A stretch of DNA of 64,000 bases from Melaminivora suipulveris (GTDB lineage Bacteria; Pseudomonadota; Gammaproteobacteria; Burkholderiales; Burkholderiaceae_C): NCBI RefSeq assembly GCF_003008575.1, contig NZ_CP027667.1, positions 1,864,501 to 1,928,500 on the forward strand, in the 5' to 3' direction. The notes under the pieces are model-generated. The model had not been told where the DNA came from. It saw nothing but the letters and a program-made list of their open reading frames with translations, and did not search any database. The translations under genes and the position numbers were made by a program. How positions within the stretch are numbered: the first letter of the stretch is position 1; every line of letters begins with the position of its first letter. Shown here one piece after another: positions 4,808-41,702 of this stretch.

Positions 4808-5625
<818 letters not shown>

Positions 5626-31189: not shown

Positions 31190-31603
31190 TCAGTTGTATG
31201 CCGCCGGCTTCACGCTGAAAGCGCACCAGCCGGGGCGCGGGCTCTTCTTTTGCGGATGCAGCCGGCAAGTCTCGGGACGACGTTCATACACCGTGCAGCG
31301 GCGCGTATCGGCGTGCAGGAACTGGCAGTCGCCGCTGGCGCGCCGAGCCAGGGTGAACAGCAGGTTTTTCGGGCTGAAGTGGTCGATCAACCGCGCTTTA
31401 GAGAGGCGCCGGGCGATCAGGCGCGGCTCGACGTGGTCCGCTTCGAACGCTTCGACCAGGCCCAGGCGCACCAGGTCGGGCAGCTGCACTTCGAGCGGCA
31501 TGGTGCAGCAGTTGGCGTTGCAGGACTCGCACAGGCCGGCGCGGTGGCGTGTCCAGGTGCCCGGGCGGTCGACGTCGACGAGGGGGATGGTGCGGGGGGG
31601 CAT
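31190..31603 (-). CDS. YkgJ-family cysteine-cluster protein
   Basis: A 137-aa protein of the YkgJ/CxxCxxCC group: CESCNANCC near residue 26, then GDCQFLHADTRRCTVYERRPETCRLHP and a last Cys in PGWCAF. The cysteines suggest a metal or Fe-S cluster; the function is unknown. The start at 31603 is preferred, since the frame upstream runs toward the regulatory region of the CRISPR locus. It is the nearest gene to the candidate Cas-regulating RNA, which points toward it. Confidence 0.85.
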   Translation of the reverse strand: MPPRTIPLVDVDRPGTWTRHRAGLCESCNANCCTMPLEVQLPDLVRLGLVEAFEADHVEPRLIARRLSKARLIDHFSPKNLLFTLARRASGDCQFLHADTRRCTVYERRPETCRLHPQKKSPRPGWCAFSVKPAAYN

Positions 31604-31626
31604 GGGAGGGTGTCGTGAAGACGGAA

Positions 31627-31653
31627 GAAAGGGGGAGCCTCGCCCCACCTTTC
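31627..31653 (-). terminator. Hairpin terminator downstream of the pseudo-spacer
   Basis: On the minus strand GAAAGG-T-GGGG ... CTCCCC-CCTTTC forms a stem of about 10 bp with one mismatch, followed by TTCCGTCTTC. It begins 25 nt after the start of the pseudo-spacer, so it could end a short CreR-like RNA. The T-tract is poor. Confidence 0.45.
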
Positions 31654-31709
31654 TCGTCCTGTCAACCAACGTTTCTAGCTTTCAATCCACGCTTTCGCGA
31701 GACGGGATC
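31654..31709 (-). ncRNA. Candidate Cas-regulating RNA (CreR/CreA-like): degenerate repeat plus pseudo-spacer
   Basis: Read on the minus strand, 31709-31679 is a degenerate CRISPR repeat: it keeps CCCGTC and the 13-mer GCGTGGATTGAAA of the array repeat, with a CGC-GAAA-GCG hairpin. The pseudo-spacer starts at 31678 with CTAGAAACGTTGGTTG. A site at 31749-31734 reads CTAGATACGTTAGTTG, differing only at positions 6 and 12, and is preceded by TTC (31752-31750), the type I-C PAM. In type I Cascade every sixth crRNA base is flipped out and unpaired. This fits an autoregulatory crRNA-like RNA that parks Cascade on the cas promoter region. Confidence 0.6.
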
Positions 31710-31736
31710 ATAAAAGCGTCAGGGGAAACCATGCAA
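31707..31736 (-). promoter_or_regulatory. Candidate promoter of the Cas-regulating RNA
   Basis: On the minus strand, TTGCAT (31736-31731) and TATGAT (31712-31707) are separated by 18 bp. Transcription would begin near 31700, inside the degenerate repeat. The -35 box lies within the sequence matched by the pseudo-spacer, so binding would also repress this RNA. Confidence 0.45.
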
Positions 31737-31752
31737 CTAACGTATCTAGGAA
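31729..31752 (-). promoter_or_regulatory. Candidate Cascade target site in the cas3 promoter region
   Basis: TTC PAM at 31752-31750, then a protospacer-like sequence from 31749. It matches the pseudo-spacer at 14 of the first 16 positions, with mismatches only at 6 and 12, and loses similarity from position 17. Such seed-only matching would favour binding without cleavage. It lies 67-90 bp before the cas3 ATG. Confidence 0.55.
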
Positions 31753-31771
31753 GAAGTTAAGGTGCGTCCAC

Positions 31772-31784
31772 CGACATATTGTCG
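31772..31784. promoter_or_regulatory. Palindrome upstream of cas3
   Basis: CGACA-TAT-TGTCG, a perfect 5-bp inverted repeat 35 bp before the cas3 start; a candidate operator for a host regulator of the cas operon. Confidence 0.35.
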
Positions 31785-31818: not shown

Positions 31819-34341
31819 ATGCCTGCAGAAGACGCCGCCCCGCCCTTCGCTGCCCACCACCGTCTGTCTGATGGCGCCTGGCAGCCGCTTGAGGACCATT
31901 TGGAGGGCGTGGCAGCCCTGGCCGCCCGGTTCGCCGGCAAGCTGGGCTTGCAAGACCTGGGTGAAGTGCTCGGACTGTTGCACGACCTGGGCAAATTCAG
32001 CCCCGCCTTTCAGGCCTACCTGAAATCGGCCATCGGCGCGCTGAACCAGGACGAGGACGAGGACTGGGTCGACGCCAAAAGCCTGAAAGGCAAGATCGAC
32101 CATTCCACGGCCGGCGCGCAATTCGCCTGGCGGTTCATGAGCCGGGGCAGCCTGATGGAGCAGTTCGCCGGCCAGGTGCTGGCGCTGTGCATCGCCTCTC
32201 ATCATTCGGGCTTGATTGATTGCGTGGGCGCGGCCCCGGCCAGCTTTGGCGAGGATCTTTTCACCCGCCGCATGCACAAGGCGACGCAGCAGACGCACCT
32301 CGATGAGGTGCAGCGCCTGGCCAGTCCGAAGCTGCTGCAGCGCTGCACCGATCTGCTCGGCGGCGGGGGCTTCGTCCGTCGGCTGGAAGAGCAGCTGAGG
32401 GGGATCGAACAGCTCAACCAGGGCGACGCGCAGCACGGCCCCGTCAGTGCCCAGCAGCTCGGCCTGCTGGTGCGCTTCATCTTCAGTTGCCTGATCGATG
32501 CCGACCGCATCGATACAGCGGACTTCGAGCGCCAGCGCCAAGGTCGCACGCGGCCCAAGGGAAGCTACGCGGATTGGCCTTTCCTGATCGAACGGCTCGA
32601 ACTGCACCTCAGCCGCCTGGCGCCAACTCGCCCCGTGGACCGCCAGCGGCAGGAGATTTCTCGCCAATGCCGGCAGGCCGCTGCACGCCCCGGCGGCATC
32701 TACACCTTGTCCGTCCCCACGGGCGGAGGCAAGACGCTGGCCAGCCTGCGTTTTGCCCTGCACCACGCCCAGCAGCACGGGCTGGACCGGGTCGTCTATG
32801 TCATCCCCTTCACGTCCATCATCGACCAGAACGCCAAGGTCGTGCGCGGCGTGCTGGAGCCTGCGGACGCCGCGCCGGATGCAGGCCGCATCGTGCTGGA
32901 GCACCACGGCAGCCTGACGCCCGAGCAGCAGACCTGGCGCGAGAAGATGCTGTGCGAGAACTGGGACGCGCCTGTCATCTACACCACGATGGTCCAGTTC
33001 CTGGAAGCCTTGTTCGGCTCCGGAACGCGCGGCGCACGGCGTATGCACCAGCTCGCGCGCTCGGTGCTGATCTTCGACGAGGTCCAGACGCTGCCCCTCA
33101 AGTGCGCGCACCTGTTCAACAACGCGGTCAATTTTCTGGTCGGGCACTGTGGCGCGACCGTCGTGCTGTGCACCGCCACGCAGCCGCTGCTGCACGAGGT
33201 TGATGCGCGTAAGGGTGCGATCCGGCTGGCTTGCGCTCACGATCATGAGCTGTTCCGGGGCGATACCACCCTGTTTCAACAGCGCGTCAGCGTGCGGGAC
33301 CAGCGCAAGGCCGGTGGTTGGTCCGACCAGGAGGTAGCCGACCTGGCGCTGGACGAGGTGCAACGCAGCGCGAGCTGCCTGGTCATCGTCAACACCAAGG
33401 CCTCGGCGCGGCGTATCTTCGAGATCTGCGCCGTGAACAGCGCGGAGCAAGGCATCTTTCACCTCAGCACGGACATGTGCCCCGCCCATCGCAAGATGCA
33501 ACTGCAAGCGATGATCGAACGCCTGGGCAGCGGGCTGCCCACGCTTTGCGTCAGCACGCAATTGATCGAGGCCGGGGTGGACGTGGACTTTGGCGCCGTC
33601 ATCCGTTTCGTGGCCGGGCTGGACTCGATTGCCCAGGCTGCGGGCCGGTGCAACCGCAACGGCGCGCGGGCCAGCGGCACGGTGCACGTGGTCAATCCGC
33701 AGAAAGAAAACCTGGAGCGGTTGCCGAACATCCTCCTGGGGCGCAACGCGGCCTTGCGGGTGCTGGATGAATTCAAACAGAACCCGGCGCGCTTCCAGGA
33801 CGACCTGCTTGGAGTCCAAGCGTTGCGTGCGTACTACCGCTACTACTTCTTCGACCGCGCCGCAGACATGGGCTACCCGGTGGCGCCTGATGAAACAGCG
33901 CAGGCCGACAGCCTGCTCAATCTTCTGTCATTCAACCAAGGCGCAGTGGACGAGCATGGACGCCGGCACGGCGCGAAGCCCCCCATCCTCCTGCGCCAGG
34001 CCTTCATGACGGCAGCCAAAGCATTTCGCGCCATCGATTCCGCCACGCAGGCCGTCATCGTGCCCTTTGGCCCGGCCGGGAAGAAACTGGTGGCCGATCT
34101 GTATGCAGCCTACGACGTGCAGCGCGAGATCGATCTGCTCCGCCAGGCCCAGCAATACAGCGTCAACGTTTTCCCCCATGTGCTGAAAAAGCTGCATGCC
34201 GCGGGCGCCTTGCACGAGGTCAAACCAGACACCCGCATCCTGTGCCTGAATGAGTGCTACTACAGCCCTCTTTTTGGCCTTGCCACTGAACCCGTTTCGC
34301 CCCAGGAGATTTTGTATGTCGGCTCCGAGACGCAGCATTGA
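31819..34341 (+). CDS. cas3: Type I-C CRISPR-associated helicase/nuclease Cas3
   Basis: An 840-aa fusion of an N-terminal HD nuclease and a superfamily 2 helicase. The HD domain has DHLEG (residues 26-30), LLHDLGKF with the HD pair at 55-56, and ASHHSGL. The helicase has Walker A SVPTGGGKTLAS (about 301), motif II LIFDEVQTLP (about 418, DEVQ), motif III LCTATQPLL and motif VI AQAAGRCNRNG. Cas3 is recruited by Cascade to nick and degrade foreign DNA. The ATG at 31819 is preferred over 31762, which would read from the regulatory palindrome. The cas5 start lies within its last 26 bp. Confidence 0.95.
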   Translation: MPAEDAAPPFAAHHRLSDGAWQPLEDHLEGVAALAARFAGKLGLQDLGEVLGLLHDLGKFSPAFQAYLKSAIGALNQDEDEDWVDAKSLKGKIDHSTAGAQFAWRFMSRGSLMEQFAGQVLALCIASHHSGLIDCVGAAPASFGEDLFTRRMHKATQQTHLDEVQRLASPKLLQRCTDLLGGGGFVRRLEEQLRGIEQLNQGDAQHGPVSAQQLGLLVRFIFSCLIDADRIDTADFERQRQGRTRPKGSYADWPFLIERLELHLSRLAPTRPVDRQRQEISRQCRQAAARPGGIYTLSVPTGGGKTLASLRFALHHAQQHGLDRVVYVIPFTSIIDQNAKVVRGVLEPADAAPDAGRIVLEHHGSLTPEQQTWREKMLCENWDAPVIYTTMVQFLEALFGSGTRGARRMHQLARSVLIFDEVQTLPLKCAHLFNNAVNFLVGHCGATVVLCTATQPLLHEVDARKGAIRLACAHDHELFRGDTTLFQQRVSVRDQRKAGGWSDQEVADLALDEVQRSASCLVIVNTKASARRIFEICAVNSAEQGIFHLSTDMCPAHRKMQLQAMIERLGSGLPTLCVSTQLIEAGVDVDFGAVIRFVAGLDSIAQAAGRCNRNGARASGTVHVVNPQKENLERLPNILLGRNAALRVLDEFKQNPARFQDDLLGVQALRAYYRYYFFDRAADMGYPVAPDETAQADSLLNLLSFNQGAVDEHGRRHGAKPPILLRQAFMTAAKAFRAIDSATQAVIVPFGPAGKKLVADLYAAYDVQREIDLLRQAQQYSVNVFPHVLKKLHAAGALHEVKPDTRILCLNECYYSPLFGLATEPVSPQEILYVGSETQH

Positions 34342-35041
34342 ATTCAAGGTATCCGGACGACACGCCCTGTTCACCGATCCCTTGAGCAAGGTGGGCGGCG
34401 AGAAATGCACCTACCACGTGCCTACCTACGAAGCCCTGAAGGGCGTGGCCAAATCCATCTACTGGAAGCCCACGCTGATCTGGGTGATCGACGAAGTGCG
34501 GGTGATGAAGCGCATCCGCACCCAGACCAAGGGCACCAAGCCGCTGGATATGGGTGGCGGCAACAGCCTGGCGATCTACACCTTCCTGTCCGATGTGGAG
34601 TACCAGGTCCGCGCGCACTTCGAATGGAACGAGCATCGTCCCGAGTTGAGCGCCGACCGTATCGAGGGCAAGCACCATGCCATTGCCCGCAGGATGGTCG
34701 AGCGCGGCGGGCGCCAGGATATTTTTCTTGGCACGCGCGACTGCCAGGGATACGTTGAAGCCTGTGAATTTGGCTCAGGGCCTGGCGAACTGGATGCGGA
34801 CGGGGAACTCGCAATGGGCCTCATGTTCCACGGCTTCGACTACCCGGATGAGACGGGCGGCGACGCGCTGCATGCGCGTTTTTGGCGGCCCACTATGGTC
34901 AACGGAGTCATCCGCTTTCCGCGTCCGCAGGACTGCACGGAGCGCAGGTTCGTCCGCGCGATGACCGTGAAGCCCTTTGGCGCGCCCCAGACACTCAAAT
35001 CGGTGGAAACGGAAGCCCAAGAGCTGGGAGTGTCGGCATGA
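34316..35041 (+). CDS. cas5c: Type I-C Cas5 (Cas5c), crRNA-processing Cascade subunit
   Basis: A 241-aa RAMP-fold protein. The I-C family pattern is clear: EFKVSGRHALFTDPLSKVGGEKCTYHVPTYEALKGVAKSIYWKP, then FLGTRDCQGYVE and MLFHGFDYPD-like segments. Type I-C lacks Cas6; Cas5c cuts the repeat hairpin and keeps the 5' handle. A ribosome binding site (AGGAGA) lies inside the cas3 end, and the stop overlaps the cas8c start (ATGA). Confidence 0.94.
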   Translation: MSAPRRSIEFKVSGRHALFTDPLSKVGGEKCTYHVPTYEALKGVAKSIYWKPTLIWVIDEVRVMKRIRTQTKGTKPLDMGGGNSLAIYTFLSDVEYQVRAHFEWNEHRPELSADRIEGKHHAIARRMVERGGRQDIFLGTRDCQGYVEACEFGSGPGELDADGELAMGLMFHGFDYPDETGGDALHARFWRPTMVNGVIRFPRPQDCTERRFVRAMTVKPFGAPQTLKSVETEAQELGVSA

Positions 35042-36954
35042 GCTGGCTACCCAAACTCCTTCAAACCTATGACCAGTGCACAGGCAGGGAGCCCGAAGGC
35101 TCCGCGCCGTTGATGCCCATCTGCCACAGCACGCAGCTTGCCCATATCGAAATCGTGCTGGATGCCGTCGGGCAATTCAGGCGGGCGCTCGTGGTTGAGA
35201 AGACGTACGGCGTCACCCTCATCCCCTGCACTGAAGGCTCGGCGGGGCGCAGCGGGATCCGGCCAGGCAATCATCCGCTGCATGACAAGCTGCAATACCT
35301 CGCAGGCGATTTTCAGGAATTCGGCGGCGAGGTCACATCCGGTTTTTCCAAAGACCCGCAAGAGCCGCATCGGGACTACCTGAAATTCCTGTCCGACTGG
35401 ATCGGCGCCGATCCGCATCCCAAGCTTCTTGCCATCCAGACCTACGTGCAGCGCGGCCGGGTCATGGGCGATCTGGTGCAGGCAGGCATTCTTCCCGTGG
35501 ACGACGAGGGCAAGCTCCAGAAGACGTGGGCGGGAGAAAAATCCGACGCCCCCGCCATTTTCAAGGTGCTTGCGCCGCAGCAGGCGCCGGGCGATGCCTT
35601 CGTCCGCTGGCGGGTGGAGGTGGATGGCGACCCCAATTCGGCCCCGTGGACCGACGCGGCGTTGATTGCTTCCTGGATCCGGCACTACCAGAGTAGCCAG
35701 GCCAAGCAGGGCTTTTGCATGGCGACCGGGCAGCACACCGCGCTGGCGGTGCAGCACCCCGCCAAGATTCGCCATGGAGGCGACAAGGCCAAGCTGATCT
35801 CGGCCAACGACAGCTCCGGTTTCACCTACCGGGGCCGGTTCGCCAGTGAGGACGAGGCGCTGGAGGTCGGCTTCGTCGCGACGCAGAAAGCGCACAACGC
35901 CCTGCGCTGGCTCATCGAACGGCAGGGTTATCGCAATGGCGACCAGGTCTTCGTTGCGTGGGAACCAGCGTCGGCAAAGCCAGTGCCAGACCTTTTTCGT
36001 GCCACGTTCGAAGCATTTACCGGTGGCTCATCGGCGTGGGAGACTGACAGCACGCCTGCCGACGCCGGCCAGGCTTTCGCGCTGCAACTGCGCAAAGCCA
36101 TCGCCGGCTATACAAGTCGGCTTGATCCCAGGGACGAGGTCGTCGTGCTGGGCCTCGACTCCGCCACGCCGGGACGCATGGCCATCGTCTTTTACCGCGA
36201 GATCAAAAGCTCGGAATTTTTAGCGCGCCTTGAAGCCTGGCATCTGGATTTCGCGTGGATGCAGAACTACGGCAAGGAGCGCAGATTCATCGGCGCCCCA
36301 GCGCCCCGCGATATTGCCGAAGCCGCGTTTGGCAGCCGGCTCGATGACAAATTGCGCGCCGCAACGGTCGAGCGGTTGCTGCCCTGCATCGTGGATGATG
36401 CGCCGCTTCCTGTGGACCTGCTCAGGTCGGCAGTACGCCGCGCGTCCAACCGCACCGGCCTTGATCCGTGGGAGTGGGAGCGATGCCTGGGCATTGCCTG
36501 CGCCCTGTTCAGGGGTTATTTCAAGGAAAGGAGTTACCGCATGGCATTGGAGCAAGAGCGAACCAGCCGGGATTACTTGTTCGGGCGCCTGCTGGCTGTC
36601 GCGGAGGACATTGAGAGCTACGCCTTGTTCGTGGCGGGAGAAAAACCGCGCGATACCAACGCGGCCCGGCTGATGCAGCGTTTTGCGGATCGGCCGGTTT
36701 CCACATGGAAAGTCCTCGCGGGACGCTTGCCTCCTTACATCTCACGGTTGCGTGCCAACCGGCCGGGAGTTCTGTACCGCAAGGAAAGGTTGCTCGACGA
36801 GATCATGGCTCTGTTCAAAACAGAGGAATTCCTTCTGAATACGCCCCTCAGCGGCGAATACCTCCTTGGCTACCACTGCCAGCGCCAGGTGCTGCGCGCA
36901 CGCGAAGACACCACCGAAACCAGCCAAGCAACCCCTTCAGGAGAACCCGCATGA
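35038..36954 (+). CDS. cas8c: Type I-C Cas8c (Csd1), Cascade large subunit
   Basis: A 638-aa protein of the Csd1 family: MSWLPKLLQTYDQC at the start, GNHPLHDKLQYLAGDFQ, LISANDSSGFTYRGRF and QKAHNALRWLIERQGY in the middle, and the C-terminal YLLGYHCQRQVL. It recognises the PAM (5'-TTC in studied I-C systems) and starts R-loop formation. It is coupled by 4-bp overlaps to both cas5c and cas7. An internal start for a Cas11c small subunit is expected in type I-C; the Met at 36541 (MALEQERTSRDYLFGRLLAV) is a candidate, 6-8 bp after AAGGAAAGGAG. Confidence 0.94.
   Translation: MSWLPKLLQTYDQCTGREPEGSAPLMPICHSTQLAHIEIVLDAVGQFRRALVVEKTYGVTLIPCTEGSAGRSGIRPGNHPLHDKLQYLAGDFQEFGGEVTSGFSKDPQEPHRDYLKFLSDWIGADPHPKLLAIQTYVQRGRVMGDLVQAGILPVDDEGKLQKTWAGEKSDAPAIFKVLAPQQAPGDAFVRWRVEVDGDPNSAPWTDAALIASWIRHYQSSQAKQGFCMATGQHTALAVQHPAKIRHGGDKAKLISANDSSGFTYRGRFASEDEALEVGFVATQKAHNALRWLIERQGYRNGDQVFVAWEPASAKPVPDLFRATFEAFTGGSSAWETDSTPADAGQAFALQLRKAIAGYTSRLDPRDEVVVLGLDSATPGRMAIVFYREIKSSEFLARLEAWHLDFAWMQNYGKERRFIGAPAPRDIAEAAFGSRLDDKLRAATVERLLPCIVDDAPLPVDLLRSAVRRASNRTGLDPWEWERCLGIACALFRGYFKERSYRMALEQERTSRDYLFGRLLAVAEDIESYALFVAGEKPRDTNAARLMQRFADRPVSTWKVLAGRLPPYISRLRANRPGVLYRKERLLDEIMALFKTEEFLLNTPLSGEYLLGYHCQRQVLRAREDTTETSQATPSGEPA
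36541..36954 (+). CDS. cas11c: Candidate internal Cas11c small subunit within cas8c
   Basis: Type I-C Cascade contains a small subunit translated from an internal start in cas8c. Here an in-frame ATG at 36541 follows a purine-rich AAGGAAAGGAG (36523-36533) and would give a protein of about 137 aa covering the helical C-terminus (MALEQERTSRDYLFG to the end). The size matches reported Cas11c products. This is inferred from family behaviour plus the ribosome binding site. Confidence 0.5.
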   Translation: MALEQERTSRDYLFGRLLAVAEDIESYALFVAGEKPRDTNAARLMQRFADRPVSTWKVLAGRLPPYISRLRANRPGVLYRKERLLDEIMALFKTEEFLLNTPLSGEYLLGYHCQRQVLRAREDTTETSQATPSGEPA

Positions 36955-37793
36955 GTGCCTTGCAAAACAAGATCGATTTCGCCGTCGTGCTGCGCGTGAA
37001 GAATGCCAATCCGAATGGCGATCCGCTCAACGGCAACCGGCCGCGCACCGACTATGGCGGGTTTGGCGAGATCACCGATGTCTGCCTGAAGCGCAAGCTG
37101 CGCGACCGTTTGCTGGAGTCGGGCCATGCCATCTTCGTGCAGTCCGATGACCGCAAGGTGGACGGTGAAACCAGCCTGCGCAACCGCGCCGAGTCGGCAA
37201 CTAACGGCCTGGGCAAGGATGCCTTCAAGAAAAGCGCCAATCGGGACGCCACGGCCAAGCTTGCCTGCGCCAAGTGGTACGACGTGCGCTCCTTCGGCCA
37301 GGTTTTCGCCTTTGCCAGCGGGGCCGACGCGGGCGGGGTGTCGATCCCGATCCGCGGCCCGGTCACCATCCAGTCGGCTTTCAGCCTGGAGCCGGTGTCC
37401 GTCACCAGCACGCAGATCACCAAGAGCGTCAGCGGTGAAGGCGACGGCAGCAAGCGCGGCTCCGACACCATGGGCATGAAGCACCGCGTGGACAGCGGCA
37501 TTTACCGCACCTTTGGCAGCATCAACCCGCAACTGGCCGAGCGCACGGGCTTCAGCGATGCCGATGCGCAGGCACTCAAGGCCGTGCTGCCCAGGATGTT
37601 TGAAAACGACGCCTCGTCGGCGCGCCCTGACGGCAGCATGGAAGTCCTGTCCGTCATCTGGTGGCAGCACAATTGCAAGGCGGGGCAGTATTCGTCGGCC
37701 AAGGTGCATGGCTCGCTGACGGTCGCTGCGGATGGAAGCATCAGCCTTGCGCCCCTGGAAGGGTTGGAAGCCGAAGTACTCGACGGCTTTTGA
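36951..37793 (+). CDS. cas7c: Type I-C Cas7 (Csd2), Cascade backbone
   Basis: A 280-aa RAMP protein coating the crRNA. Family signatures are FAVVLRVKNANPNGDPLNGNRPRTDYGGFGEITDVCLKRKLRD near the start, ACAKWYDVRSFGQVFA, GPVTIQSAFSLEPV and MGMKHRVDSGIYRTFGSINP. It starts in a 4-bp overlap with cas8c. A 53-bp gap separates it from the dinD-like gene, the only real gap before cas4. Confidence 0.95.
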   Translation: MSALQNKIDFAVVLRVKNANPNGDPLNGNRPRTDYGGFGEITDVCLKRKLRDRLLESGHAIFVQSDDRKVDGETSLRNRAESATNGLGKDAFKKSANRDATAKLACAKWYDVRSFGQVFAFASGADAGGVSIPIRGPVTIQSAFSLEPVSVTSTQITKSVSGEGDGSKRGSDTMGMKHRVDSGIYRTFGSINPQLAERTGFSDADAQALKAVLPRMFENDASSARPDGSMEVLSVIWWQHNCKAGQYSSAKVHGSLTVAADGSISLAPLEGLEAEVLDGF

Positions 37794-37846
37794 TTGCGGG
37801 AACGGTGAGGCAGATCGCGACAGATTTACACCTTGAGGTACAGCCC

Positions 37847-38719
37847 ATGAAAGTGCTGCCCACTGACTTCGAAGGCCAGTCCATCCGCCGCATCTATGAC
37901 GAGGCCACCGAAACCTGGTGGTTCTCCGTCATTGACATCGTGCAGGTGCTGACCGGTACGAGCAATGCGCGCAGGTATTGGTCGGATCTCAAGCGCAAAC
38001 TGGCGCGCGAGGCCGGGTCGGAGCAACCGTACGCGGAAATCGTACAGTTGAAACTCACGGCGCCGGATGGCAGGAAGCGCGAGACCGACTGCGCCACGGC
38101 GGCAACGCTGCTGCGCATCGTCCAGTCCATCCCCAGCCCCAAGGCCGAGCCCATCAAACTCTGGCTCGCCAAAGTCGGCTACGAGCGCATGCAGGAGATC
38201 GCCGACCCGGCCCTGTCGCTGGACCGTGCCCGCCAGACCTGGCAGCAGCAGGGCCGCAGCGACAAGTGGATCCAGCAGCGCATGACCGGGCAGGAGACGC
38301 GCAACAAGCTCACCGACTACTGGGGCGAGCACGGCATCCAGCAGGGGCGCGAGTTCGCCATCCTCACCAGCCTGATCCACCAGGAATGGTCGGGCCTGTC
38401 CGTGGCCGAGCACAAGGACGCCAAGGGTTTGACCAGCCACAACCTGCGCGACCACATGAGCGAGGCCGAGCTCATCTTCACCGCGCTGGCCGAGCTGTCC
38501 ACCCGCCAGATCGCCGAGCGCCAGCAGGCCACCGGCATGGCCGAGAACAAGAGCGCCGCGCAGGCCGGCGGGCGCATCGCCGGCCAGGCGCGCCGGCAGC
38601 TGGAGAGCCAGACCGGCCAGCCGGTGGTGTCGGCATCGAACTACCTGCCGCCCGATGCCCGGCCCCCGGCCCGCCTGCCGCGCAAGCCCGCGCCCAAAGG
38701 TGGCAAGCGCCAGGGCTGA
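37847..38719 (+). CDS. Bro-N/DinD-like protein embedded in the cas operon
   Basis: A 290-aa protein. The N-terminus is a Bro-N-type domain (TWWFSVIDIVQVLTGTSNARRYW ... SDLKRKL). The remainder matches DinD (DNA damage-inducible protein D): KPIKLWLAKVGYERMQEI-like segment, TDYWGEHGIQQGREFAILTSLIH, KGLTSHNLRDHMSEAELIFTALAELSTRQIA and an ending GQPVVSASNYLPP. E. coli DinD inhibits RecA filaments in vitro. Here it lies between cas7 and cas4, 3 bp before the cas4 ATG and on the same strand, so it is co-expressed with the adaptation genes. No LexA box was seen in the 53-bp gap. It could be an accessory factor or a passenger. Confidence 0.82.
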   Translation: MKVLPTDFEGQSIRRIYDEATETWWFSVIDIVQVLTGTSNARRYWSDLKRKLAREAGSEQPYAEIVQLKLTAPDGRKRETDCATAATLLRIVQSIPSPKAEPIKLWLAKVGYERMQEIADPALSLDRARQTWQQQGRSDKWIQQRMTGQETRNKLTDYWGEHGIQQGREFAILTSLIHQEWSGLSVAEHKDAKGLTSHNLRDHMSEAELIFTALAELSTRQIAERQQATGMAENKSAAQAGGRIAGQARRQLESQTGQPVVSASNYLPPDARPPARLPRKPAPKGGKRQG

Positions 38720-38722
38720 GCC

Positions 38723-39364
38723 ATGGTCGATGCGCCCGACCCCGTCCCGCTGTCGGCGCTGCAACACTGGTGCTACTGCCCGCGCCAGTGCGGCCTGATC
38801 CACCTGGAGCAGGCGTTCGACGACAACCTGCATACCCTGCGCGGCCAGGCCGTGCACGCGCGCACCGACCAGCCCGGCGTCGAGACCGCCCGCGGCGTGC
38901 GCGTGGAGCGCGCGCTGCCGCTGTGGCATGACGCGCTGGGGCTGGTGGGCAAATCCGACGTGGTCGAATTCATGCCCGGCGGCGCGCCCTACCCGGTCGA
39001 ATACAAGCACGGCAGCCGCCACAAGGCGCCCGACATCGCCGCCTGCGACGACCTGCAACTGGCCGCACAGGCGCTGTGCCTGGAGCACATGACCGGCCAG
39101 CCCGTACCCGAGGGCGCGCTGTACTACGCCAGCTCGCGCCGGCGCCGGGTGGTGGCCATCGGTGCCGAGCTGCGCGCGCAGGTCGTCGCCACTGCGCAGG
39201 CCATCCGGCAGATGCTGGCCAGTGGCGAGTTGCCACCGCCGCTGGCAGGCGAGCAGGCCGCACGGCGCTGCAAGGGCTGTTCGCTCATCGACCGCTGCCA
39301 GCCGCTGGCCACCCGCGCCGGCCTGGATGCTGCCCGCCAAACGCTGTTCGACCCCGACGCATAA
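38723..39364 (+). CDS. cas4: Type I-C Cas4 Fe-S exonuclease
   Basis: A 213-aa RecB-like nuclease that selects and trims prespacers with the correct PAM. The iron-sulfur cysteines are CYCPRQC near residues 17-23 and CKGCSLIDRC near 183-192. The nuclease core includes GKSDVVEF and PVEYKHG (D and E-x-K). The 3-bp gap from the dinD-like stop and 28-bp gap to cas1 place it in the same transcript. Confidence 0.94.
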   Translation: MVDAPDPVPLSALQHWCYCPRQCGLIHLEQAFDDNLHTLRGQAVHARTDQPGVETARGVRVERALPLWHDALGLVGKSDVVEFMPGGAPYPVEYKHGSRHKAPDIAACDDLQLAAQALCLEHMTGQPVPEGALYYASSRRRRVVAIGAELRAQVVATAQAIRQMLASGELPPPLAGEQAARRCKGCSLIDRCQPLATRAGLDAARQTLFDPDA

Positions 39365-39392
39365 CGCCGCCGCCCCGGCGCAGGAGATCAGC

Positions 39393-40421
39393 ATGCAATT
39401 GCTCAACACCCTGTACGTCACCCTGGAGGGCGCCTGGCTGCGGCTGGACAACGACACGCTGCGCGTGGAGGTCGAGCGCGAAACGCGGCTGCGCGTGCCG
39501 CTGCACCACCTGAGCGCGGTGGTGTGCTTTGGCCACGTCGGCCTGTCCGCGCCGCTGATGCACCGGCTGGCCGATGAGGGCATCGCCCTGGTGCTGCTGG
39601 ACGACAACGGCCGCTACAAGGCGCGCCTGGAGGGCGCGATGAGCGGCAACGTGCTGCTGCGCCAGGCGCAGTTCCAGCGACTGGCGGATGCGACCTTCAC
39701 GCTGGACACGGCGCGCGCCTGCGTGGCCGGCAAGATCAAGAACTGTCGGCAGGTCCTGCAGCGGGGCGCGCGCGAGGCCAAATCGGAACAGGAGGCCGCC
39801 GCGCTGACCCGGCTGGCCGACGACCTGGCCGCCAGCCTGCGCGCCCTGCCCGCTGCCGACAGCCTGGACGCCCTGCGCGGCGTGGAGGGCGAAGCCGCGC
39901 GGCAGTATTTCAGCGGCCTGAATCTCCTGGTGCGCCCCGACCAGCGCGCCGCCTTCACCATGGACGGCCGCACCCGCCGCCCGCCGCGCGACCGCTTCAA
40001 CGCCCTGTTGTCTTTTCTGTACGCCATGTGGATGAACGATTGCCGCAGTGCGCTGGAGGCCGCGGGGCTGGATCCGCAAGCGGGCTTTTTGCACGCGCTG
40101 CGCCCAGGACGCGCCGCCCTGGCCCTGGACCTGATGGAGGAGTTCCGCCCCTGGGCGGATCGCCTGGCGCTCACCCTCATCAATCGCAGCCAGTTGAACA
40201 CTCACGACTTTGCGGTGCGCGAGGGCGGCGCCGTGACCCTTGCGCCAGACGCGCGCAAGACCGTGGTCGTTGCCTTCCAGGAGCGCAAGAAGGATGAAAT
40301 CAGCCATCCGCTGTTGGCGCAGACACTGCCCCTGGGACTGGTGCCGCTGGTGCAGGCCCGGCTGATGGCGCGCGCCGTGCGCGATAGCGCTGCGCCCTAC
40401 ATCCCGTTCGTGACCAAATAG
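39393..40421 (+). CDS. cas1: Type I-C Cas1 integrase
   Basis: A 342-aa integrase of the adaptation complex. Typical segments are MQLLNTLYVTLEGAWLRLDND at the start, NALLSFLYAMWMNDC, GFLHALRPGRAALALDLMEEFRPWADRL (catalytic His and acidic residues) and LINRSQL. The ATG at 39393 follows AGGAGA; the longer frame from 39162 overlaps cas4. cas2 begins 12 bp downstream. Confidence 0.95.
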   Translation: MQLLNTLYVTLEGAWLRLDNDTLRVEVERETRLRVPLHHLSAVVCFGHVGLSAPLMHRLADEGIALVLLDDNGRYKARLEGAMSGNVLLRQAQFQRLADATFTLDTARACVAGKIKNCRQVLQRGAREAKSEQEAAALTRLADDLAASLRALPAADSLDALRGVEGEAARQYFSGLNLLVRPDQRAAFTMDGRTRRPPRDRFNALLSFLYAMWMNDCRSALEAAGLDPQAGFLHALRPGRAALALDLMEEFRPWADRLALTLINRSQLNTHDFAVREGGAVTLAPDARKTVVVAFQERKKDEISHPLLAQTLPLGLVPLVQARLMARAVRDSAAPYIPFVTK

Positions 40422-40433
40422 GAGGGGGCTGCC

Positions 40434-40724
40434 ATGCTGGTGCTGGTCTGCTACGACGTCAACACCGAAACCAAGGCCGGCCGGCGCCGCCTGCGCCGCG
40501 TCGCCAAGGTATGCGAAAGCACAGGGCAGCGGGTACAGAAGTCGGTGTTTGAATGCCAAGTGGACGTGGCGCGCTTCGAGGAGCTGGAGCGCCGCCTGTT
40601 GGCAGAAATCGACCCCGCGCAGGACTGCCTGCGGATGTACCGCATCCCGGGCACCCGTGGCTTTGAGGTGCTGGAGCACGGCATGTTCAAGGCGACGGAT
40701 TTCGACGCGCCGCTGGTGCTGTAG
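40434..40724 (+). CDS. cas2: Cas2
   Basis: A 96-aa ferredoxin-fold protein bridging Cas1 dimers. It opens [40 protein letters not shown], typical of type I-C Cas2. It is the last cas gene; the array leader starts right after its stop. Confidence 0.95.
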
Positions 40725-40950: not shown

Positions 40951-41702
40951 GCTTCGCCCGTCAGCAATGGCGGGCGTGGATTGAAACAGGCCCAGCGTCT
41001 TGTTTTCCACGCCGGCAATGCCGCTTCGCCCGTCAGCAATGGCGGGCGTGGATTGAAACGTGAGTTGCTTCAATTTCGCTCGGTACTCGTCCCGCTTCGC
41101 CCGTCAGCAATGGCGGGCGTGGATTGAAACTTTGGCGATGGCCACCACGAATGACGAGCCGAATGCTTCGCCCGTCAGCAATGGCGGGCGTGGATTGAAA
41201 CGCGGCATCGTCCGGGCGTAGGGCTATCCCCAGCTCGCTTCGCCCGTCAGCAATGGCGGGCGTGGATTGAAACGCCTCGATGCAGTTCGACGTAGACATT
41301 TTGAAGCGCTTCGCCCGTCAGCAATGGCGGGCGTGGATTGAAACATCGTGCGATCCAGGTCAACCCAGGTGCTGACCTTGGCTTCGCCCGTCAGCAATGG
41401 CGGGCGTGGATTGAAACATCGGGCATCGGCGAGGCGATGCGCGGCGTGTACGCTTCGCCCGTCAGCAATGGCGGGCGTGGATTGAAACACCAACAATAAA
41501 GGCGTGGTGCTGTCGCTGGACGCGCTTCGCCCGTCAGCAATGGCGGGCGTGGATTGAAACTTCCTGCGTAAAGCTCGCTACGGCGCGCGACAGGGCTTCG
41601 CCCGTCAGCAATGGCGGGCGTGGATTGAAACAACGTCGTCGACGTCAGTGGCATGGCTGGCGGCGGCCTCGCCAGCTAGGAATGGCGAGCTGAATAAGAA
41701 AT
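40951..41702 (+). CRISPR. Type I-C CRISPR array, 10 spacers
   Basis: Ten identical 37-bp repeats start at 40951, 41023, 41094, 41165, 41237, 41308, 41381, 41452, 41524 and 41595; each begins GCTTCGCCCGTCAGCAATGG and ends GCGTGGATTGAAAC. An internal CGCCCG/CGGGCG inverted repeat makes the hairpin cut by Cas5c. An eleventh, degenerate repeat (41666-41702) ends the array; it keeps the stem by paired changes (TCGCCA/TGGCGA). Spacers are 34-36 bp. No sequence search was possible, so targets are unknown. Confidence 0.98.

Follow-up and report, generated by a model that had tools for sequence, protein, structure and literature searches.

A lone degenerate CRISPR repeat (psi-repeat) and the pseudo-spacer that follows it, upstream of the type I-C cas operon in the 64-kb window (the whole stretch of DNA analysed here), probably form a CreR-like guide which would lead the type I-C Cascade to a site upstream of cas3 and so repress its own operon; we put the probability of this reading at roughly 0.84. 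At the level of the sequence it is supported by the type of the operon, the repeat remnant, the seed match, the PAM, the position, a terminator-like hairpin and the occurrence of such pairs in 17 other I-C loci. The original prediction had proposed an element like CreR or CreA, and the I-C operon, the very low likelihood of chance, the 17 other I-C loci and co-variation between congeners all support this, narrowed to CreR.

The psi-repeat (31679-31709, minus strand) shares 13 consecutive identities (GCGTGGATTGAAA) with the array repeat GCTTCGCCCGTCAGCAATGGCGGGCGTGGATTGAAAC in a script test, and its final base is G where the array repeat has C. In a base-by-base comparison, the pseudo-spacer read from 31678 and the site read from 31749 were identical at nt 1-5, 7-11 and 13-16, with mismatches within nt 1-16 at nt 6 and 12 only and with further differences at nt 17-19. 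The three bases immediately 5' of the target site (31752-31750, minus strand) read 5'-TTC, which is the I-C PAM in Xanthomonas according to the available text of PMC8406640, and the target lies approximately 70 bp upstream of cas3 in a complete type I-C operon. The original prediction had thus described correctly the repeat remnant with its 13-mer, the 16-nt match interrupted at nt 6 and 12, the TTC and the end of the match after nt 16; the observed psi-repeat, guide, target and PAM are confirmed as real (Table 1).

Table 1 Positions of the element, the cas genes and their neighbours in the window, and of the candidate peptide ORFs in other loci
Feature	Position	Strand	Evidence or remark
Target, 16-nt partial match CTAGATACGTTAGTTG	31734..31749	-	mismatches solely at nt 6 and 12; full protospacer would extend to about 31716
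PAM 5'-TTC	31750..31752	-	sequence test
-35-like TTGCAT of presumed creR promoter	31731..31736	-	sequence; 3 of 6 bases of TTGACA
-10-like TATGAT	31707..31712	-	sequence; 18 bp from the -35-like box
Psi-repeat	31679..31709	-	hairpin CGC-GAAA-GCG (31690-31699), then 11-nt tag TGGATTGAAAG (31679-31689)
Pseudo-spacer (guide)	31655..31678	-	CTAGAAACGTTGGTTG + 8 nt as far as the hairpin
Terminator-like hairpin, putative 3' end of guide RNA	31625..31654	-	hairpin scan and fold
Divergent CxxCxxCC (YkgJ-like) gene, outside the system	31190..31606	-	similarity to congeners stops about its start codon
cas3 (HD + helicase), first gene of the operon	31819..34341	+	GTG 31762 is an in-frame alternative start
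cas5c, predicted crRNA/CreR processing enzyme	34250..35041 (ORF limits)	+	TIGR01876, match from residue 32
cas8c	34882..36954 (ORF limits)	+	TIGR01863, match from residue 59
cas7c	36705..37793 (ORF limits)	+	TIGR02589, match from residue 89
BRO-N domain ORF, bystander, between cas7c and cas4	37661..38719	+	domain match
cas4	38723..39364	+	profile match
cas1c	39162..40421 (ORF limits)	+	TIGR03640, match from residue 79
cas2	40434..40724	+	profile match
CRISPR array, 10 repeats of 37 nt	40951..41632	+	array detection
ORFs of the ~40-residue peptides	L155:9500-9619; L111:3969-4091; L150 ~5337-5468 (minus); L211 between target and cas5c		

Nowhere else in the 64-kb window did a sequence agree with the guide at as many as 12 of the 14 seed bases counted. 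Across the whole 3.75-Mb genome (one contig), the 16-mer with up to two mismatches was found only at the element and the target; as a backwards-read control pattern of the 16-mer also had two genome matches, it is the 71-bp spacing of the two matches that carries weight and not their genome-wide rarity. The 12-mer CGTGGATTGAAA has 13 copies in the genome, comprising 10 in the array, 2 elsewhere and the psi-repeat.

The operon has the order cas3, cas5c, cas8c, cas7c, cas4, cas1c and cas2, and was typed as I-C in a profile search by TIGR01876, TIGR01863 and TIGR03640. Homologues of the BRO-N gene were also seen in several further I-C loci (L154, L045, L050, L079, L062, L055 and L075). Between target and cas3 there is a perfect palindrome, CGACATATTGTCG (31772-31784), present in a single copy in the window; a similar site, TGTCGACA...TGTCGACA, lies beside the same neighbour gene in the congener G001 (L205).

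The original prediction had also placed a -35/-10 pair ahead of the guide RNA, with the -35 box inside the target. Both boxes are present at a distance of 18 bp, but the TTGCAT agrees with the consensus at only three of six bases and a sigma-70 consensus scan recognised no promoter ahead of either cas3 or the guide RNA; likewise, the -35-like box falls wholly within the footprint of a full-length protospacer but shares only 3 nt with the 16-nt match. The hairpin expected after about 25 nt was found, beginning at pseudo-spacer nt 25. In 13 of the 14 elements compared, the best 3' hairpin begins at guide nt 13-37, with a mean of -20.7 kcal/mol in elements vs -13.5 (sd 4.7) in random windows; taken singly, those of L153, L156, L109 and L197 do not stand out, being equalled by 18-79% of random windows.

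Type I-C systems are without Cas6, and Cas5d/Cas5c leaves an 11-nt 5' handle (available text of PMC5965380). In I-C crRNA maturation this tag comes after a hairpin; the window has the 11-nt tag, and the hairpin ahead of it is of only 3 bp. In its tag-ending form this psi-repeat hairpin scores 3.5, a value equalled by 36% of random positions, and computed folds favour other pairings; the fold of the whole guide RNA is no better than that of shuffled sequences (z -0.96). When nine elements were folded at the tag boundary, six others had scores equalled by at most 5% of random positions and two others by 7% and 9%, this control being a moderate one only. Because the hairpin has only 3 bp and the whole-RNA fold is no better than shuffles, processing by Cas5c is the least certain step of the proposed mechanism.

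In that mechanism, transcription of the guide RNA would begin near 31700, driven by a promoter at 31707-31736, and would stop at the hairpin at 31625-31654; Cas5c would cleave the RNA at the foot of the psi-repeat hairpin, leaving the 11-nt tag, and the product would then be loaded into Cascade. With Cascade bound at 31734-31752, the cas promoter would be blocked and cas3-cas5-cas8-cas7 repressed; because the full target footprint covers the -35-like box, the guide's own promoter may be repressed too. Since no pairing extends past nt 16, binding would not be followed by cleavage by Cas3; an I-C Cascade engineered to act without Cas3 is able to repress transcription (available text of PMC10865793). 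Expression would be expected to rise once array crRNAs titrate Cascade or anti-CRISPR proteins block it, as for CreR elsewhere.

We compared the element with known systems, as described in the portions of the cited papers that were available. CreR has been reported for types I-B, I-E and V-A (PMC13131331) and has been termed widespread in type I and V-A (PMC12737573). The original prediction had given this locus as not known to be described, and we found no earlier account for this subtype: there was no type I-C CreR or CreTA and no I-C autoregulation among the matches listed, prediction in an original paper or a supplement being possible, and neither "type I-C" nor "I-C" is mentioned in the available portions of PMC12737573, PMC9458426 and PMC8501985. 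The window resembles CreR (Liu et al. 2023 Cell Host Microbe; via PMC13131331, PMC12737573 and PMC12948488), a mini-CRISPR RNA beside the cas genes without a toxin gene, with partial complementarity to the cas promoter and the Cas effector acting as repressor. It has a crRNA-like gene with a degenerate repeat beside the cas operon, a guide that would pair in part with a PAM-flanked site in the putative promoter region of its own operon (-70 from cas3) and no coupled toxin gene. It differs in its predicted guide maturation by Cas5c, without Cas6, and in having a single psi-repeat plus a terminator-like hairpin. Because the window types as I-C and CreR has been demonstrated in I-B, I-E and V-A, we file the element as a variant and not as a member of the demonstrated CreR group.

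The closest architectural parallel described in these sources is the type I-F CreTA module of Acinetobacter (PMC10097628), which lies in a gap of approximately 400 bp after cas3, has a PAM-flanked partial match, and has its guide divergent from the regulated mini-ORF and its target upstream of that mini-ORF. However, the I-F module has two psi-repeats, Csy4, a CC PAM and a toxic small RNA with a mini-ORF, whereas the window has no mini-ORF. The type I-B CreTA of Haloarcula and Halobacterium (PMC8501985) shares with the window the pairing of seed nt 1-5 and 7-11 with nt 6 and 12 unpaired, the TTC PAM and, in H. hispanica, a form with one psi-repeat and a terminator, but it is archaeal, processed by Cas6 and represses an RNA toxin. 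In CrePA a protein toxin is under CRISPR repression (PMC12737573); several relatives, though not the window, have a small ORF in the corresponding place, but these ORFs have 30-61 codons, several encode hydrophobic peptides, they belong to type I-C and they are candidate toxins.

To determine how far the pattern recurs, we collected type I-C loci in a sample of relatives (14 of 149 genomes with a Cas3 match), an order sample (26 of 399 genomes), a phylum sample (30 of 398 genomes by Cas3 and 32 of 398 by the Cas5c family, all 34 loci being used), a further sample of 80 named contigs, which were the best 80 of 92, and a plasmid sample of 16 records picked from 56 among the matches listed, 15 of which were scanned (L192 was omitted as a copy of L191). 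The promoter scan covered 185 regions from 161 loci, 156 of them distinct (the doubled contigs are L162/L095, L047/L017, L050/L004, L063/L020 and L115/L003), and accepted only TTC-flanked partners with no more than one mismatch in the seed. In L158 and L068 the upstream sequence was too short to be scanned. It should be noted that the counts for position, gap and palindrome still contain the doubled contigs, none of which is positive. The scan yielded 15 pairs in 14 loci. A TTC-flanked, seed-matched partner was found near 13 of the 22 positions with a repeat tail score of 9-10, near one accepted position (L009) among the 83 with a score of 8, and in 205 pairs among the 182,562 positions with scores of 0-5 (approximately 0.1%). 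Six control PAMs gave no pairs at tail scores of 9-10 in the promoter scan, and the guides of nine loci, tried on other loci, gave 0 matches in 1551 tests.

We also scanned whole loci without regard to the PAM (149 loci, 1.94 Mb, arrays masked, full seed identity, repeat tail at least 8/10). Among the 19 pairs found with a tail score of at least 8, TTC preceded the target in all 10 of those inside cas promoter regions and in none of the 9 outside them, where eight other trinucleotides stood. An independent set was then assembled by Cas5c searches (4/53, 7/22 and 17/87 genomes), which gave 29 loci; 24 were new, after the known positives L208, L212 and L232 and the known negatives L213 and L214 were dropped, and in each a stretch of 1.6 kb upstream of cas5c was scanned, coding sequence included. 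In these 24 loci, tails scoring at least 9 were paired in 4/4 cases (L211, L221, L227 and L233), with TTC and no more than one seed mismatch, and tails scoring 8 were paired in 0/33.

Altogether, a pair of this kind is present in 18 of 180 distinct loci, the window counted, and the guide sequences are unrelated between most positive loci. The positives include metagenome-assembled genomes of Methylococcales (L109) and Gammaproteobacteria (L111) and two plasmids, Tistrella mobilis pTM3 (L186) and Paenibacillus amylolyticus pY5S7-1 (L197); the remaining 13 plasmid records (Zymomonas, Nitratidesulfovibrio vulgaris, Acidisoma, Leptolinea, Thermus and others) were without the element. The L197 pair has one seed mismatch and pairs little past the seed; with it the device would reach beyond Pseudomonadota into Bacillota. 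The pair of L040 sits between cas3 and cas5.

No accepted partner was found for nine of the 22 tails scoring 9-10. Lone tails near cas3 for which none was accepted are those of L044, L058, L077, L079, L080, L097, L183, L021 and L024; the first seven of these also had none when searched within 3 kb with one seed mismatch, L077 and L080 having less than 170 bp of contig ahead of the tail. Four of these target-less lone tails (L044:9921, L058:9890, L077:165 and L080:157) lie on the operon strand, 60-160 bp before cas3; such tails could be Cas5c cut sites in the leader of the cas mRNA. A further pair, in L157/L121 (G849), has a tail score of 10 and a TTC partner 232 bp away with one seed mismatch; it was left uncounted because the automatic promoter region was misplaced by a cas3-like fragment (L157:13401-13595) upstream of the intact cas3.

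Between the target and the cas gene, at least 10 loci (L152, L153, L109, L111, L150, L155, L026, L211, L221 and L227) have a small ORF, 30-61 codons long, with a sequence resembling a ribosome-binding site. The ORF lies between target and guide in L152, L153, L221 and L227, and after the guide in L109. Those of L111, L155, L150 and L211 encode a family of approximately 40 residues with one hydrophobic stretch (M-DWK-LxREFRLLL-QLP--RFW); three were aligned, at 49-51% identity to the first, and L211 was added by reading. Three members of this family turned up among 5.8 billion proteins searched, and one of the three contains the L150 peptide. The ORF of L109 (L109:12829-13008), between the Cascade target and cas5c in the Methylococcales genome, matches a ParD-like antitoxin family, and the other five ORFs tested had no match above Pfam cut-offs. 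The peptides of ~40 residues behind the Cascade target are candidates for guarded toxins, and the ORF-bearing loci are candidate CreTA/CrePA-like modules; the small ORFs of these relatives suggest that the same device there may restrain a small hydrophobic-peptide toxin.

These ORFs are an argument for supposing that in the window, too, the guide chiefly restrains a toxin, either a mini-ORF RNA or a small protein, and makes Cascade addictive, as in CreTA/CrePA. We consider this unlikely: the window has no separate ORF in the 66 nt between PAM and cas3, and no toxin gene or mini-ORF downstream of the target. The only ATG there is cas3's own, the GTG at 31762 is in frame with cas3 and the TTG at 31779 opens just an overlapping frame of 30 codons. 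The divergent CxxCxxCC gene is also found in congeners without this cas insert. As it has no ORF of its own between target and cas3, the window is taken as CreR-like, with putative direct control of cas, and the same is taken to apply to L154 and L032.

We take the match profile across loci as a signature of R-loop pairing. In the 15 promoter-scan pairs, guide and target agree in 14-15 of 15 at nt 1-5 and 7-11, which were selected positions, in 1 at nt 6 and 2 at nt 12, in 11, 12, 9 and 9 at nt 13-16 and in 4 at nt 18; positions 6 and 12-18 played no part in the selection of pairs. With the four new pairs added, agreement is 2/19 at nt 6 and 4/19 at nt 12, the exceptions being L221, which matches at both, and L026, which matches nt 6 and fails nt 7. 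For CreA it has been shown experimentally that nt 6 and 12 are unpaired and that nt 1-5 plus 7-11 are sufficient (available text of PMC8501985).

The original prediction had proposed looking for joint change of pseudo-spacer and target in related loci, and this was found in the congeners G417 (L155, identical to L212) and G234 (L211), in which the gaps between cas3 and cas5 can be aligned. Three seed positions of the guide, nt 2, 7 and 8, differ between them (C/T, T/A and T/G) and the target has the same three differences; one more difference, at target nt 11, is uncompensated. The psi-repeat stems beside the tag differ yet stay paired (alignment by eye).

These results bear on whether the element could be a non-functional remnant, that is a decayed mini-array whose spacer came from neighbouring DNA in an old self-targeting acquisition. 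The repeat is indeed degenerate outside the tag and the match ends at nt 16, as a remnant might show. However, decay would not preserve an identical seed with its mismatches at nt 6 and 12, a TTC and a place in the cas promoter in 18 loci whose guides are mostly unrelated, nor would it change guide and target jointly between congeners, and we regard a remnant as improbable.

We also examined the origin of the region. The divergent CxxCxxCC gene was found in four of the five genus genomes searched, the window's own counted, and similarity upstream of it stops within approximately 10 nt of its start codon (alignment by eye). Beyond this gene G003 and G001 have different sequence, and G004 has a cas locus at the same place. 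Since similarity between congeners ends at the start of the CxxCxxCC gene and other sequence or a cas locus follows, guide and target most likely belong to the cas insert. The locus of the sister species G004 (L154, 7519-16268) differs in its interference module and carries a guide/target pair of its own, located between cas3 and cas5; identity to the window is 94% for cas4, 93% for cas1 and 97% for cas2, and 37% for cas3 and 32% for cas7c. Judged by these identities, the interference module is swapped within one locus between sister species, with cas4-cas1-cas2 retained.

Absence of the pair from close relatives which keep the cas operon, which the original prediction had named as evidence against itself, was found in part: the Cas3 relatives at 62-72% identity (L041, L045, L106 and L116) are without an element upstream of cas3, and the trait is sporadic among type I-C loci. 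Conservation by descent, assessed through aligned close relatives, was not usable there as these four have no element, and recurrence of the pattern was used instead. Three of the four carry an operator-like palindrome instead.

Solitary repeat units are known from viral genomes as Racrs (available text of PMC10651486), and the lone repeat of the window might similarly be an anti-CRISPR RNA decoy left by a mobile element. We think this very improbable, as the window's lone repeat stands within the cas insert and has a spacer with a PAM-flanked target, which a decoy does not need, and the three upstream neighbour genes that were searched match no phage family in Pfam. A chance origin of the pairs is very unlikely across the loci, and for the window a chance similarity within the 210-bp intergenic region is scarcely credible: such a genome should contain about two matches to a 16-mer at two mismatches (control: 2), but TTC-flanked partners with one seed mismatch or none occur at only about 0.1% of positions without a repeat tail, and in the window the tail, the PAM, 14/14 pairing positions and the location all coincide.

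Two layouts were found among the elements. The guide is divergent from the operon and upstream of the target in the window, L111, L150, L154, L155, L032, L026, L197, L211 and L233, and it is on the operon strand and downstream of the target in L152, L153, L109, L186, L009, L221 and L227. L156 (3748-3893) has one guide and two TTC targets, one directly before a TTGACA box on the guide strand and one on the operon side, which makes dual autoregulation possible. An element was present in 8/12 of the cas3-cas5 gaps longer than 300 bp (those without are L007, L008, L173 and L038), in 1/5 of those of 150-300 bp and in 0/8 of those of 60-150 bp; it was present in 2/111 loci with gaps of up to 60 bp, there upstream of cas3, and in 3/142 regions upstream of cas3.

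A palindrome, GCTCA-N5-TGAGC (CAGGCTCA-N5-TGAGCCTG), occurs in the promoter regions of 27/149 loci (one contig double), approximately ten times above the background of 12/745 random windows. It lies near cas3, for example in L041, L042, L106 and L118, and is possibly the site of a further cas regulator in type I-C. It was present in 1/12 guide-bearing loci of that set, where about two would be expected under independence; that protein repressor and guide are alternative controls is only a suggestion.

Beyond the CreR-like reading of the window, we lean slightly towards the view that type I-C has an overlooked class of regulatory guides made by Cas5c, each with a single psi-repeat, a TTC target and a terminator, which would serve self-repression of cas in some loci and restraint of a small membrane-peptide toxin in others, guide and target co-evolving amid complete turnover of sequence. 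Type I-C is among the commonest subtypes (PMC7684278) and the creTA genes known before PMC10097628 all surround cas6, according to the available text of that paper; since I-C lacks cas6 (PMC5965380), elements in this common subtype could have been missed. Applied near cas3 or cas5, a rule made up of the repeat tail, TTC and seed nt 1-5 and 7-11 picks out elements which share little other sequence, and it explains the majority of the long cas3-cas5 gaps that were examined. With this rule one can test whether I-C Cascade monitors its own abundance and attack by anti-CRISPR proteins, and it names new candidates for Cascade-guarded peptides.
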